Origin: Thermoplasmata archaeon
GTDB taxonomy: Archaea > Thermoplasmatota > Thermoplasmata > Lutacidiplasmatales > UBA184
DNA length: 35,630 nt
Assembly: GCA_022750375.1 (NCBI GenBank)
Contig: JAKIVU010000010.1
Span: forward strand, 1-35,630
Reading direction: 5' to 3'
Shown here: positions 6,303 to 13,706 of the stretch, in pieces
Numbering within the stretch: the stretch's first letter is position 1
Layout: each line of letters begins with the position of its first letter
Made by a program: the position numbers and the translations under genes
The notes under the pieces: generated by a model
Seen by the model: only the letters and a program-made list of their open reading frames with translations
Told to the model about the DNA's origin: nothing
The model's database searches: none

Positions 6303-8564
6303 CTAGCGGATGTGGTCGAGGCTGAACGAGCCGAGGTTGAGCGACCGCTTCGAGAACGTGTAGCCGATGAACGCCCGCGACTGGGTCTCGCCGATCCCCT
6401 TCACCGACAGGAACGTCTTCAGTTGCTCGATCTTGAGGTTGATCGACCCGTCGACCATGTGCTCGAGCGTCTCGAGGTCGGCGTCCGAGTGCATGCCGCG
6501 GTCGAGCACGTAGTACGAGACCGCTTGGTCGATCTTGCGGCGCCCGATGAACGGTTGCAGGAACCGGAACGTCGCGGTCGTCTCGAGGTACGCGGTCACG
6601 GTCGACACCGACTCGAAGACGAGCCGGTACGTCGGGAACTTCTCCTTCAGCTCCTCGGAGATGGCGTTCACGGTCTGGGCGAGCTGGTCGAGCATCCCCT
6701 TATCGGTCGACGACAAGAGGCGGACCCCGGTCGTCGACTGGCTCGACCCGACGCTGCGCGAATACAGGTCGACGAACCGGATCATCCCGGCCCGTTCGGC
6801 CTCGTCGTACTTCGGGTAGAGTCCCGCGAGGTCCTCGCGGACCTGGCCCCACGTCTTGTCGGTGACGACCCAGATCGAGGGGATGCCGAGCTTCAGGCCC
6901 TCGACGGAGAACAGGCGCGCGAGCACGTCCTTCCCTGTGTGCGCCGGCCCGTTGAGCAGGAGTTGGGCGCCCGCGGGGAACCCGCCGTAGAGCAGGTCGT
7001 CGAGCCGTCGGATGCCGCTCTTGACCTTGACCTCCGCGACCGCGCGGACCGCGTCCTCGTGCATCTGGTCGGCGTCGGATTCGGCCGCCCGACCGGCGAG
7101 CTTCTCCAGGTCGACCATCCGCTCGCGGAGGGCCCCCTCCCGGGCGCGGAGCTCCTCCTCCTTCACGGAGAGCATGTGCTGGAGGTCCTCGACGCGTCGC
7201 GCCTCGTCGGAGGCGCTCGTCGCGCCGGCGCTCCCGACCGCGCGACGCAGCTCCTCCAGCCGGCGGGCCTCGATATCGAGCGCCTGCTTGCGGGTCTGGA
7301 GCTGCTGGTCGTAGGCGGAGAGTTCGCGTTCCTTGAACTCGAGCGGGGAGCGGCGTCGTTCGATCTCGTCGGAGTTGATCCGGATCTCCTCGAACCGCTG
7401 CCGCAGCTCGTTCTCGCGCGCGACGAGGTCCTTCTCGCGCTGGTCGACCAGGGTGAGCCGTTCGTCGACGTCGACGGAGATCGAGCCGCCGCCCGAGAGC
7501 AGCTGGCCCCGTTCCCGCATCCGGTCGGCCTCGCCCTGGAGGTTCCGGACCTCGCTCTCGAGCTGGACGGTCCTCCGCCGCAGCTCCGTCTCGCGTTCGA
7601 TGTAGGCGTGCTCTCGTTCGGAGAACTCCTCGCGGAGCCGCTGGTCGATCTCGCGCGTCGCCTTCTCGACCGCGTTTGCGGTGTACTGGGGAGGGACCAT
7701 GCCGGTCGTCGGGTCGGCGGCGGGGGTGGGTGCCGCCCGCGCCTCCTCTCCTTCGAGGGCGAGCAGGCGGAGCCGGAGCTCCGCGATCTCGTCTTCTTTC
7801 CCCCGGACCGCGAGCTCCTTCTCCTTCGCTTCGTGCGACCGGACGTACTTGATCACGGCGATCGAGCCGCGCTTCACGTGCTCGATCTCCTCTTCGAGTT
7901 GCTTGCGCTTCGTGCGCTCGTCGAACAGTTGGCGGTGCAGGTCCTGGGTCTCCTGGATCATCGTCGCCGGGTCGAACTGGTCGCTCTTCACCCGGTCCAA
8001 GAGGCCCATCAGCCAGCGAACGACCGTCTCCTCTCGCTCGAACACCGGGGCGGCGACCGAGTCGGCGGAGCGGGACCGTCCCGCCTCCTCGGCATCGTGC
8101 ATACCGGTCGGGATCGCGGCGGGGGCGACGGCGCCGTGCGGGGGCTCCGAAGATTGGATCCACTCCTCCATCGCGCCGTCGTCGCCCTCGACCCATTTCC
8201 GCAGCGTGTCCGTGGAGTCTTTCGTCGGGGTCGCCACGCGCGGCCGTCGCGGGCGCTCGGGTCGCCGGACCGTGCCGACCCAGCGCTGGACGATCCGGTC
8301 GTTCTCGACCGTGCGGTCGGCGCTGACGAGCGTAGCGGAGTCGGGACGGCGACGGATCCGTTCCACGTCGTTGGTCGAAACGCCGAGGAGCTCGAGCGCC
8401 GTCTGGGACAGTTCGCGGACCGACTCGACGGACGTGTACCCGGCTTGAATGAGGGTATCGACCGTATCGGCGCCGACCCCGAGGGCTCGCGCGAGCTCTC
8501 CGGGGTCCGGGGACCGCGACGTCGGGCCCGGGGCCACCACTCCTTCCGCCGTGCCGTCCGCCAT
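6303..8564 (-). CDS. Helix-hairpin-helix, coiled-coil and RecA/KaiC-like ATPase-domain protein
   Basis: 753 residues. Residues about 10-65 form a helix-hairpin-helix region (ELARALGVGADTVDTLIQAGY) like the RadA N-terminus. A charged linker precedes a long coiled coil (about 205-490) rich in Glu/Arg heptads. The last 240 residues are a RecA/KaiC-superfamily core: GGFPAGAQLLLNGPAHTGKD (P-loop at 539-546), a Walker-B-like strand (YRLVFESVS near 648-656) and a C-terminal beta segment (INLKIEQLKTFLSVKGI). The P-loop has Asp after Lys where Thr/Ser is usual, and the Walker B acidic residue is Glu. ATP binding is plausible; hydrolysis is uncertain. The SMC-like layout suggests a DNA-binding or signalling scaffold. 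It diverges from tyrS. Confidence 0.85.
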   Translation of the reverse strand: MADGTAEGVVAPGPTSRSPDPGELARALGVGADTVDTLIQAGYTSVESVRELSQTALELLGVSTNDVERIRRRPDSATLVSADRTVENDRIVQRWVGTVRRPERPRRPRVATPTKDSTDTLRKWVEGDDGAMEEWIQSSEPPHGAVAPAAIPTGMHDAEEAGRSRSADSVAAPVFEREETVVRWLMGLLDRVKSDQFDPATMIQETQDLHRQLFDERTKRKQLEEEIEHVKRGSIAVIKYVRSHEAKEKELAVRGKEDEIAELRLRLLALEGEEARAAPTPAADPTTGMVPPQYTANAVEKATREIDQRLREEFSEREHAYIERETELRRRTVQLESEVRNLQGEADRMRERGQLLSGGGSISVDVDERLTLVDQREKDLVARENELRQRFEEIRINSDEIERRRSPLEFKERELSAYDQQLQTRKQALDIEARRLEELRRAVGSAGATSASDEARRVEDLQHMLSVKEEELRAREGALRERMVDLEKLAGRAAESDADQMHEDAVRAVAEVKVKSGIRRLDDLLYGGFPAGAQLLLNGPAHTGKDVLARLFSVEGLKLGIPSIWVVTDKTWGQVREDLAGLYPKYDEAERAGMIRFVDLYSRSVGSSQSTTGVRLLSSTDKGMLDQLAQTVNAISEELKEKFPTYRLVFESVSTVTAYLETTATFRFLQPFIGRRKIDQAVSYYVLDRGMHSDADLETLEHMVDGSINLKIEQLKTFLSVKGIGETQSRAFIGYTFSKRSLNLGSFSLDHIR

Positions 8565-11126: not shown

Positions 11127-11537
11127 ATGGTCGTCAAGCGTCAGTGCTCGTTCTGCGCCCAGGAGATCGAACCCGGCACCGGGGCGATGTTCGTGAAGCG
11201 CGACGGCACGGTCTTCCACTTCTGTTCGGGCTCGTGCCGGAAGCAACAGCTGCATCTCGGACGCGTCGGCCACCGATTCAAATGGACGCGAGCCCACGCG
11301 TTGAAGAAGGCGGCCGACCGGTCGAGCGCCGCTGCTCGCGCGCAGGCACCCACCGCTTCCCCGCACCGGACCCGCGGGAGAACTCGGGGACCGGTCGCGG
11401 TCCAACCGGCGGCAGCGGCCGCCCCCGCCTCCGTTCCGGAAACTCCGACGACGGCGGCGGGGTCGGCCCCCGTGACGCCGGTGAAGGCCCGTACGAAGCC
11501 CCGGAAGAAAGCCAGTGCGACTCCCCCCGAAGCGTAG
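11127..11537 (+). CDS. rpl24e: Ribosomal protein L24e with long basic low-complexity C-terminal extension
   Basis: Residues 1-60 are a complete L24e zinc-binding domain: KRQCSFCAQEIEPGTGAMFV, then HFCSGSCRKQQLHLGR, giving CxxC and CxxxC zinc ligands, followed by FKWTRAHA. Archaeal L24e normally ends near here. This product continues for about 75 residues of Ala/Pro/Thr/Arg/Lys-rich sequence ending in PRKKASATPPEA. The extension keeps an open frame in line with the domain, so I read it as a real disordered basic tail, probably touching rRNA. It is the third gene of the cluster; in many archaea ndk comes next, but here other genes intervene. Confidence 0.93.
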   Translation: MVVKRQCSFCAQEIEPGTGAMFVKRDGTVFHFCSGSCRKQQLHLGRVGHRFKWTRAHALKKAADRSSAAARAQAPTASPHRTRGRTRGPVAVQPAAAAAPASVPETPTTAAGSAPVTPVKARTKPRKKASATPPEA

Positions 11538-11601: not shown

Positions 11602-11865
11602 ATGAGTGGATCGGACTCCTGGGCGTCGGCGAGCGAACTCGCGGACTACGCCTACTGTCCGCGGTCTCACTGGTATCATGACCACCCGCCCCACGGAGCT
11701 CCGAATCGATCGGCGCGGGACCGGGAGGAGGCCGGCCGGCGCTACCACGCCCACGCGCTCTCCGGCGAGCGCCGCCGGGCCGACCACGGAGGGGCGTACT
11801 GGGCGGGACTCGCGCTCGGGCTGCTGTTGGCGGTCGGCTCGCTCGCATGGATCTTCCGTCCCTGA
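11602..11865 (+). CDS. N-terminal part of a split membrane-embedded Cas4-like protein
   Basis: 87 residues. The segment SASELADYAYCPRSHWYH matches the N-terminal Cas4 motif with the first iron-sulfur cysteine (YCPR). EEAGRRYHAHAL matches the following G-x3-H motif. It then runs into a membrane helix (YWAGLALGLLLAVGSLAWIF) and stops, so the nuclease core is missing. The next ORF starts 19 bp before this stop, in the -1 frame, with a second helix and the rest of the domain. The pair may be two coupled polypeptides, one product of programmed frameshifting, or an assembly error. A TATA-like GGTAAG lies about 30 nt upstream of the ATG. Confidence 0.75.
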   Translation: MSGSDSWASASELADYAYCPRSHWYHDHPPHGAPNRSARDREEAGRRYHAHALSGERRRADHGGAYWAGLALGLLLAVGSLAWIFRP

Positions 11866-12374
11866 CCCTCCTCGTCGCGGTGGGGTTCGCGATCCTCGGC
11901 ATGGGGGTCGCCGTCGCCGCGGCGCGGGGCCTCGTCACCGCGCATCGGGAGCGGTCGCTCGGCGAACTGGTCGCGATCGACGCGGGAGCTCCGATGACCC
12001 TCCGCTCCGATCGATACCGGTTGTCGGGACGTCCGGATGTGCTGCGTCGACTTCCCGACGGTCGCCTCGTTCCGGTCGAGTTGAAGAGTCGAACCGCTCC
12101 GCCGCGGGGACCGCCCGCGTCGCATCGGGTCCAGGTCGAAGCGTACTGCCTCCTGGTCGAAGAGACGACCGGCGCCGCGCCCCCGTTCGGCATCGTGCGG
12201 TACGGCGACGGTCAGGAGTTCCGGATCCCGTGGACCGCGGACGCGAGGACCGAGGTGCTTTCGGTGCGCGCCTCCGTGGGCCGGCGGTACGATGGGCGGG
12301 CCACGCCGTCCCCCGCGAAGTGTGCCCGTTGCGCCTGGCGGCCGGTCTGCGACGCGCGGGCTCCGTCGAGCTGA
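11847..12374 (+). CDS. C-terminal part of a split Cas4-like PD-(D/E)XK nuclease with membrane helix
   Basis: 175 residues. Residues 5-30 form a membrane helix (SLTLLVAVGFAILGMGVAVAAA). The core then shows PD-(D/E)XK/Cas4 motifs: GRPDVLR (metal-binding Asp), LVPVELKSRT (E-x-K), HRVQVEAYCLLVEE (RecB motif III Gln/Tyr) and a C-terminal KCARCAWRPVC cluster with three cysteines. Together with the Cys in the upstream ORF these would make four [4Fe-4S] ligands, divided over two chains. Cas4-type enzymes are iron-sulfur 5'-3' DNA exonucleases; no CRISPR locus is visible here, so a solo-Cas4 role in DNA processing at the membrane is an inference. Confidence 0.82.
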   Translation: MDLPSLTLLVAVGFAILGMGVAVAAARGLVTAHRERSLGELVAIDAGAPMTLRSDRYRLSGRPDVLRRLPDGRLVPVELKSRTAPPRGPPASHRVQVEAYCLLVEETTGAAPPFGIVRYGDGQEFRIPWTADARTEVLSVRASVGRRYDGRATPSPAKCARCAWRPVCDARAPSS

Positions 12375-13247: not shown

Positions 13248-13706
13248 ATGGCAGAAGGCAGTCTCGAGCGGACCCTGGTCCTCGTCAAGCCGGACGGCGT
13301 GAAGCGGGGGCTCGTCGGAGAGATCCTCGGGCGGCTCGAGCGCAAGGGGCTGAAGATCCTCGCCGTGAAGACCTGCCACGTCACCCCGGAGCACGCGCAG
13401 CGACACTACGCGGAGCACCAGGGAAAGCCGTTCTATCCGTCGCTGATCCAGCACATCACCTCGGGCCCGGTGATCGCCGTCGCGCTCGAGGGCCGCTCGG
13501 CGATCGCGGTCGTCCGGCTGCTGACGGGGGCGACGAACCCCCAGACGGCGGCCCCCGGCACCGTGCGGGGCGACCTCGCGCTCGGGATCACCGCGAACCT
13601 GATCCACGCCTCCGACTCCCCGGAGTCGGCCGCGCGCGAGCTCGCGCTCTACTTCACCCCCGAGGAGTTCGGGGCCTACTCCCGCACCGGCGAGGAGTTC
13701 TCGTAG
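13248..13706 (+). CDS. ndk: Nucleoside diphosphate kinase
   Basis: Transfers gamma-phosphate between nucleoside triphosphates and diphosphates through a phosphohistidine. 152 residues, normal length. Family motifs: [53 protein letters not shown], and the catalytic His120 in ANLIHASDS. The ATG lies about 26 nt after a TATA-like CCCTTACC, so the transcript is probably leaderless. Four nucleotides separate its stop from the Sua5 gene, so they are likely one operon with map. Confidence 0.97.

Follow-up and report, generated by a model that had tools for sequence, protein, structure and literature searches.

Positions 11,602 to 12,374 of a 35,630-nt stretch of archaeal DNA (the window) hold two overlapping reading frames, ORF1 and ORF2, which carry between them the sequence motifs of a Cas4-like nuclease and each of which encodes a predicted membrane helix. 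Are they two chains of one membrane-tethered enzyme, the products of a programmed frameshift, or the pieces of a single gene broken by an assembly error? All three options had been raised in a preliminary description of the locus. We followed them through the homologs of both frames, their junction, topology, predicted fold, and genomic context.

Nuclease motifs divided between two reading frames

The window comes from a 931-kb genome of a high-GC archaeon (G000; 69% complete). Its best relatives among named genomes are MAGs of Thermoplasmata, Candidatus Lutacidiplasma silvani among them, of the order Ca. Lutacidiplasmatales. The features of the locus are the following.

11127-11537, +: ribosomal protein L24e gene, conserved upstream neighbor, outside the enzyme
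11602-11865, +: ORF1 (87 aa), N-terminal part of a Cas4/RecB-type nuclease with a C-terminal membrane helix
11656-11658, +: Cys19 codon (YCPR), predicted first Fe-S ligand, invariant in 22 species
11734-11748, +: G45-x3-H49 motif (N-terminal His of Cas4/RecB-type nucleases), G45 and H49 invariant
11800-11856, +: predicted membrane helix 1 (ORF1 residues ~67-85), N-in/C-out by the positive-inside rule
11847-11865, +: 19-nt overlap from the ORF2 ATG to the ORF1 TGA stop, -1 frame
11847-12374, +: ORF2 (175 aa, ATG start), membrane helix, PD-(D/E)XK core, and three predicted Fe-S cysteines
11868-11924, +: predicted membrane helix 2 (ORF2 residues ~8-26), N-out/C-in by the positive-inside rule
12027-12038, +: GRPD motif (ORF2 residues 61-64, metal-binding Asp), invariant in 22 species
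12078-12086, +: E78-x-K80 catalytic motif of ORF2, invariant in 22 species
12132-12146, +: Q96-x3-Y100 motif of ORF2, invariant in 22 species
12321-12350, +: C159-x2-C162-x5-C168 of ORF2, three predicted Fe-S ligands, invariant in 22 species
13248-13706, +: nucleoside diphosphate kinase (ndk) gene, conserved downstream neighbor

Every element named in the preliminary description was found, from the YCPR and G-x3-H motifs and the terminal helix of ORF1 to the initial helix and the nuclease motifs of ORF2, as were the length of the overlap and the frame that it had given. The four-cysteine Fe-S module, as defined for Cas4 (PMC5704561), is present as one cysteine in ORF1 and three in ORF2, placed around the helical hairpin as had been proposed and all invariant, which predicts a cluster with ligands from both chains. 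Elsewhere in the window, the L24e protein (136 aa) has its Pfam domain at residues 5-57, followed by a long Ala/Pro/Lys-rich C-terminal extension, and the product of a gene at 6303-8564 (-), 753 aa in length, has a long N-terminal part, apparently a coiled coil, ahead of a KaiC-like ATPase domain (PF06745) at its C-terminus.

ORF1 and ORF2 match adjoining parts of Cas4

The similarity to Cas4 and other PD-(D/E)XK nucleases claimed earlier is far above chance, since ORF2 exceeds the Pfam cutoffs of both PDDEXK_1 (PF12705; 42.1 versus 22 bits) and Cas_Cas4 (PF01930; 26.0 versus 22.7 bits) and carries the PD-(D/E)XK motif set of Cas4 (GRPD, ExK, QxxxY). An initial filtered scan of the window genome for Cas_Cas4 had given no match, a shortcoming of its filter, as ORF2 itself scores over the cutoff. 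ORF1, which is short and by itself under the family cutoffs, matches positions 3-45 of PDDEXK_1 weakly. In the cas4 model TIGR00372, ORF1 aligns to positions 3-42 and ORF2 to positions 52-179; because both match adjoining parts of the same model, they correspond to adjoining pieces of one protein. The equivalog cutoff of TIGR00372 (65 bits) applies to one polypeptide and lies above the scores of ORF1 (15.9 bits) and ORF2 (54.3 bits), and it is passed by two fused homologs (L024, 82.5 bits; L031, 68.5 bits) and by an ORF2 homolog from Chloroflexota (84.9 bits).

Structure prediction points the same way. A sequence search with ORF2 against solved structures gave a weak match to the Cas4 protein SSO0001 (E = 0.096). 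AlphaFold2 modeled ORF2 with a mean pLDDT of 88.9, and a natural fused relative (L024) with modest confidence (pLDDT 77.7, pTM 0.72), the C-terminal cysteine region being the least certain. The first Foldseek match of both models was the Cas4 of a type I-C Cas4-Cas1-Cas2 complex (E = 1.1e-6 for ORF2 and 8.8e-5 for fused L024), followed by the SSO0001 Cas4, AdnAB, Dna2, MGME1, and ACE1. The nuclease core, as modeled, has a Cas4 fold.

Both chains are conserved. C19, R21, G45, and H49 of ORF1 and GRPD, E78, K80, Q96, Y100, C159, C162, and C168 of ORF2 are invariant in 22 species, and the ORF1 cysteine is kept in all 24 distinct homologs from Chloroflexota and Methanomicrobia. Close pairs indicate purifying selection, with dN/dS of ~0.2-0.5 for ORF1 and 0.2-0.3 for ORF2, values to be read in the light of a dS that saturates quickly. 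Among the 103 family genomes, ~81 have an ORF2 of the window type (counted at best E < 1e-20), and matches to the ORF2 profile were found in 233 of the 349 genomes of the class sample. A real, membrane-bound pair could still be degenerate, that is, a Cas4-derived Fe-S membrane protein that has a structural or regulatory role and no longer cuts nucleic acids; the insertion is unusual, and the activity of the members is predicted from sequence. The invariance of the catalytic residues in the 22 species, their retention in ~30 of 31 distant ORF2 homologs, and the purifying selection make such a loss of activity unlikely.

Two additional kinds of gene were noticed. Most genomes of the family also encode a separate soluble Cas4-like paralog of ~275 aa (L044, L045), which was not found in the 69% complete window genome. 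One locus (L076; G062:C75) holds a second ORF2-type copy that is apparently broken into two overlapping frames and is possibly a pseudogene.

The split is conserved, with a start codon at most junctions

The split loci were drawn from the GTDB family of the window (103 genomes and 7 genera of Ca. Lutacidiplasmatales), together with two second-copy loci from another family. The -1 split was present in all 62 distinct split loci that were read, 60 of them from the family of the window; in the 22 loci of the same genus, ORF1 ends and ORF2 begins with a hydrophobic helix in the -1 frame without exception. Among loci of named GTDB genomes, partly the same genomes as the 62, the -1 frame was found in 71 of 72, the sole exception (L144) being in the +1 frame. 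These counts bear directly on the idea that one fused gene was broken by an indel from assembly or sequencing. That idea drew on the fact that the window is part of a single MAG and on the existence of fused homologs, but the identical split, with a start codon at the junction, recurs in the 62 loci and in independent MAG projects. An error is thus excluded as the origin of a split that scores of independent genomes share, and we give it practically no weight.

The second possibility was programmed -1 ribosomal frameshifting, which would yield one fused Cas4-like protein with two helices, with or without ORF1 alone. Several observations are compatible with it: the archaeal overlapping pairs invariably have ORF2 in the -1 frame, this frame stays open for 79 nt or more before the ORF1 stop, and the fused product would share the topology of the single-gene Methanomicrobia homologs (L204-L206). 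However, none of the 22 loci checked has a -1 slippery heptamer (X_XXY_YYZ) within the final 90 nt of ORF1. Of the 62 loci, 58 have a start codon in the ORF2 frame at the junction (between -22 and +11 relative to the ORF1 stop), compared with 3 that have one in the third frame (comparison window of -22 to +5), and this position of the second start, over or near the first stop, is the one of translationally coupled overlapping genes. Moreover, 4-nt NTGA overlaps (ATGA, GTGA, or TTGA) are present in 23 of the 62 loci, and such an overlap by itself fixes the frame, which explains its constancy. A GGAGG sequence lies 4 nt upstream of the chosen ORF2 start in 6 of 22 loci. Against coupling, five of the 103 family genomes, among those read, have no nearby ATG, GTG, or TTG at the junction (e.g., L015). 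The missing heptamers and the placement of the start codons, together with the +1 frame of L144 and the separate genes of Chloroflexota described below, make frameshifting very unlikely. Translational coupling is the simplest reading of the archaeal pairs, as judged from their junctions.

The two chains have opposite predicted topologies

The helix of ORF1 is preceded by three K/R in 15 residues and followed by one, while that of ORF2 is preceded by none and followed by three in 15 residues. The positive-inside rule gives N-in/C-out for ORF1 and N-out/C-in for ORF2, a pattern found in 25 of 25 pairs, including those of Methanomicrobia and Chloroflexota. Each chain of these 25 pairs combines a hydrophobic helix with positive-inside charges, as integral membrane proteins do, the localization being a prediction. 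The split therefore falls in the outside loop of the hairpin, and both catalytic pieces would be placed on the cytoplasmic side.

The halves are separate genes in Chloroflexota

In a sample of 150 genomes from the class of Thermoflexus (Chloroflexota), ORF2-type genes were found in 108, ORF1-type genes in 104 (a few of these matches have long open frames and may be other Cas4-like proteins), and both in 101. The co-occurrence of the two halves is strong (Fisher test; P = 3e-25, a value that ignores shared ancestry). Among the 101 genomes with both halves, 41 have them adjacent, 27 have them on the same strand at 151-2500 nt, 3 have them far apart on one contig, and 30 have them on different contigs of draft assemblies, where they may or may not be linked. 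One genome (G544) consists of a single 3.32-Mb contig with the halves at 0.24 and 3.05 Mb, i.e., ~0.5 Mb apart if circular, and in another (G385) they are 182 kb apart on opposite strands. The Chloroflexota ORF1s retain the cysteine, the G-x3-H motif, and the C-terminal helix. Since the halves are separate and sometimes unlinked genes, frameshifting does not operate there.

Fused relatives carry helices at the same position

The preliminary description had asked whether related genomes would show one fused frame or the same split, and both were found. Most other Thermoplasmata families encode a single ORF of ~325-345 aa that has these motifs and, at the position of the hairpin in the split pair, four predicted helices separating the first cysteine from the core. 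Two fused proteins (L037 and L040) have eight predicted membrane helices, apparently through a tandem duplication of the hairpin within the nuclease. In Methanomicrobia, the class to which the Methanofollis genome belongs, matches were found in 12 of 149 genomes. Eight genomes have the split pair and three a single two-helix ORF (L204-L206), all within one clade; here, sister species differ in being split or fused. Two genomes of another Thermoplasmata family (L046, L047) each have a fused four-helix gene and, in addition, a second, split pair.

The tree of the nuclease core, which cannot be rooted, groups the fused Thermoplasmata proteins in one clade (support of 100/97) and those of Methanomicrobia in another (100/99), and it requires at least two changes between the split and fused states. 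Without a root, it favors neither state as the ancestral one.

Genomic context is unrelated to CRISPR

In the Lutacidiplasmatales, the pair is flanked by rpl24e and ndk, and a methyltransferase gene is often found on the opposite strand; of the 120 loci scanned, 80 have L24e close to the pair and 87 have Ndk. The best structural and profile matches, which are to Cas4, would agree with a Cas4 that serves CRISPR adaptation by working in trans with Cas1-Cas2, and so would the presence of cas1 in some genomes. Yet the pair occurs in about four-fifths of the family genomes, most of them without cas1, which was found in only 19 of the 103; its context is ribosomal and ndk, its chains are predicted to be membrane anchored, and a relative has a separate Cas4-Cas1 fusion. 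With cas1 sparse and such neighbors, the pair is not one encoded with cas1/cas2 or a CRISPR array, and a role in adaptation is highly unlikely. The absence of a CRISPR link noted earlier agrees with our search, as cas1 was not found in the window genome (69% complete). The fusion in question lies in the Lutacidiplasmatales relative L081 (G067:C54, +), close to an ORF2-type gene; this relative therefore has both a true CRISPR Cas4 and the membrane form.

The neighborhoods compared revealed no partner gene common to all lineages, and several of the neighbors concern nucleic acids. A TPD-motif protein (PF14811; E = 3.6e-42) is encoded immediately upstream in seven fused Thermoplasmata loci (L264-L267, L272-L274), and RNase HI is a neighbor in Methanomicrobia. 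In Chloroflexota, a translin-like gene, scoring just under the Pfam cutoff, directly precedes ORF1 in 10 of 20 loci (e.g., L242, L248, L235); a YkuD (L,D-transpeptidase) gene often follows and in several loci lies between ORF1 and ORF2. The location in a ribosomal-protein/ndk cluster and the inheritance without CRISPR point to a likely housekeeping role, which we infer to be the processing of DNA or nucleic acids at the membrane; the clearance of incoming DNA and the resection of ends in repair are both possible.

Discussion

We consider it likely that ORF1 and ORF2 are two single-span subunits of one membrane-tethered Fe-S DNA nuclease of the Cas4/AddB type, with a housekeeping, CRISPR-free function and coupled translation. 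The conserved split, the topology, the co-occurrence of the halves, and their fused and unlinked homologs favor, at the level of sequence, the two-chain and CRISPR-unlinked interpretation put forward in the preliminary description. Each subunit would span the membrane once, and the two would together form the helical hairpin found inside the fused homologs. The ORF1 piece (Cys19, His49) would meet the ORF2 core (GRPD, ExK, QxxxY, Cx2Cx5C) on the cytoplasmic side, where one cysteine of ORF1 and three of ORF2 may complete the Fe-S cluster of a putative heterodimer. Translation of ORF2 would depend on coupled re-initiation, at a start codon that overlaps the stop of ORF1, and not on frameshifting. 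As a likely housekeeping task, the predicted nuclease would process DNA ends or remove them on the inner side of the membrane.

The pair resembles Cas4 (TIGR00372/PF01930; SSO0001, PDB 4ic1; type I-C Cas4, PDB 8d3l) in its PD-(D/E)XK core with ExK and QxxxY, in its one N-terminal and three C-terminal cysteines, and in its best fold matches, but it differs by the membrane hairpin between the first cysteine/His and the core, by the two genes, and by the absence of a CRISPR context. In this last respect, it is like solo-Cas4, the Cas4 relatives found outside CRISPR loci, which are mostly inherited vertically, are common in archaea, and include many from Chloroflexi (Hudaiberdiev et al. 2017; PMC5704561). 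The text of that survey mentions neither transmembrane segments nor split genes, and its Chloroflexi solo-Cas4 may include ORF2-type halves. AddB, AdnAB, Dna2, and RecB also have a PD-(D/E)XK exonuclease domain, with an Fe-S cluster in AddB, AdnA, and Dna2, and AdnA and Dna2 are among the top Foldseek matches of the models; unlike them, the pair is without a helicase domain, and the known nuclease domains are soluble and single chain. ACE1, the Argonaute-associated Cas4 family (PDB 9iab, 9iac), is likewise a CRISPR-free Cas4-family nuclease with a matching fold but is soluble, single chain, and linked to Argonaute. Further counterparts are the fused membrane Cas4-like proteins (L023-L043, L204-L206), identical in motifs and insertion point but each made as a single chain in which 2, 4, or 8 membrane helices are predicted. 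In the open-access literature, we found no published description of a membrane or split Cas4, and the Lutacidiplasmatales paper (PMC9287336) does not mention Cas4, CRISPR, or nucleases.

Both halves recur in more than 100 other microbes, in some joined in one gene and in others encoded far apart, which makes the split a real and widespread one. We think it somewhat probable that they belong to a widespread, hitherto undescribed class in which an Fe-S cluster and the neighborhood of the active site are shared by two independently encoded single-span proteins and completed only where the halves meet in the membrane, a class spanning Thermoplasmata, Methanomicrobia, and Chloroflexota with repeated changes between the split and fused states. 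If the chains assemble, this would be a nuclease that takes its Fe-S ligands from two membrane proteins, in two domains of life, and its natural fused versions would be ready controls. Assembly from two halves could serve as a safeguard or as a switch controlled by redox state or translation. If this is true, a large share of the Thermoplasmata and Chloroflexota proteins now annotated as solo or CRISPR Cas4 would belong to a different, membrane-anchored enzyme, whose other half is a short ORF easily missed or left unnamed by automatic annotation. This raises the question of why a Cas4-type DNA exonuclease would be placed at the membrane, where it may act on incoming DNA, in the repair of DNA ends, or in nucleic acid turnover.
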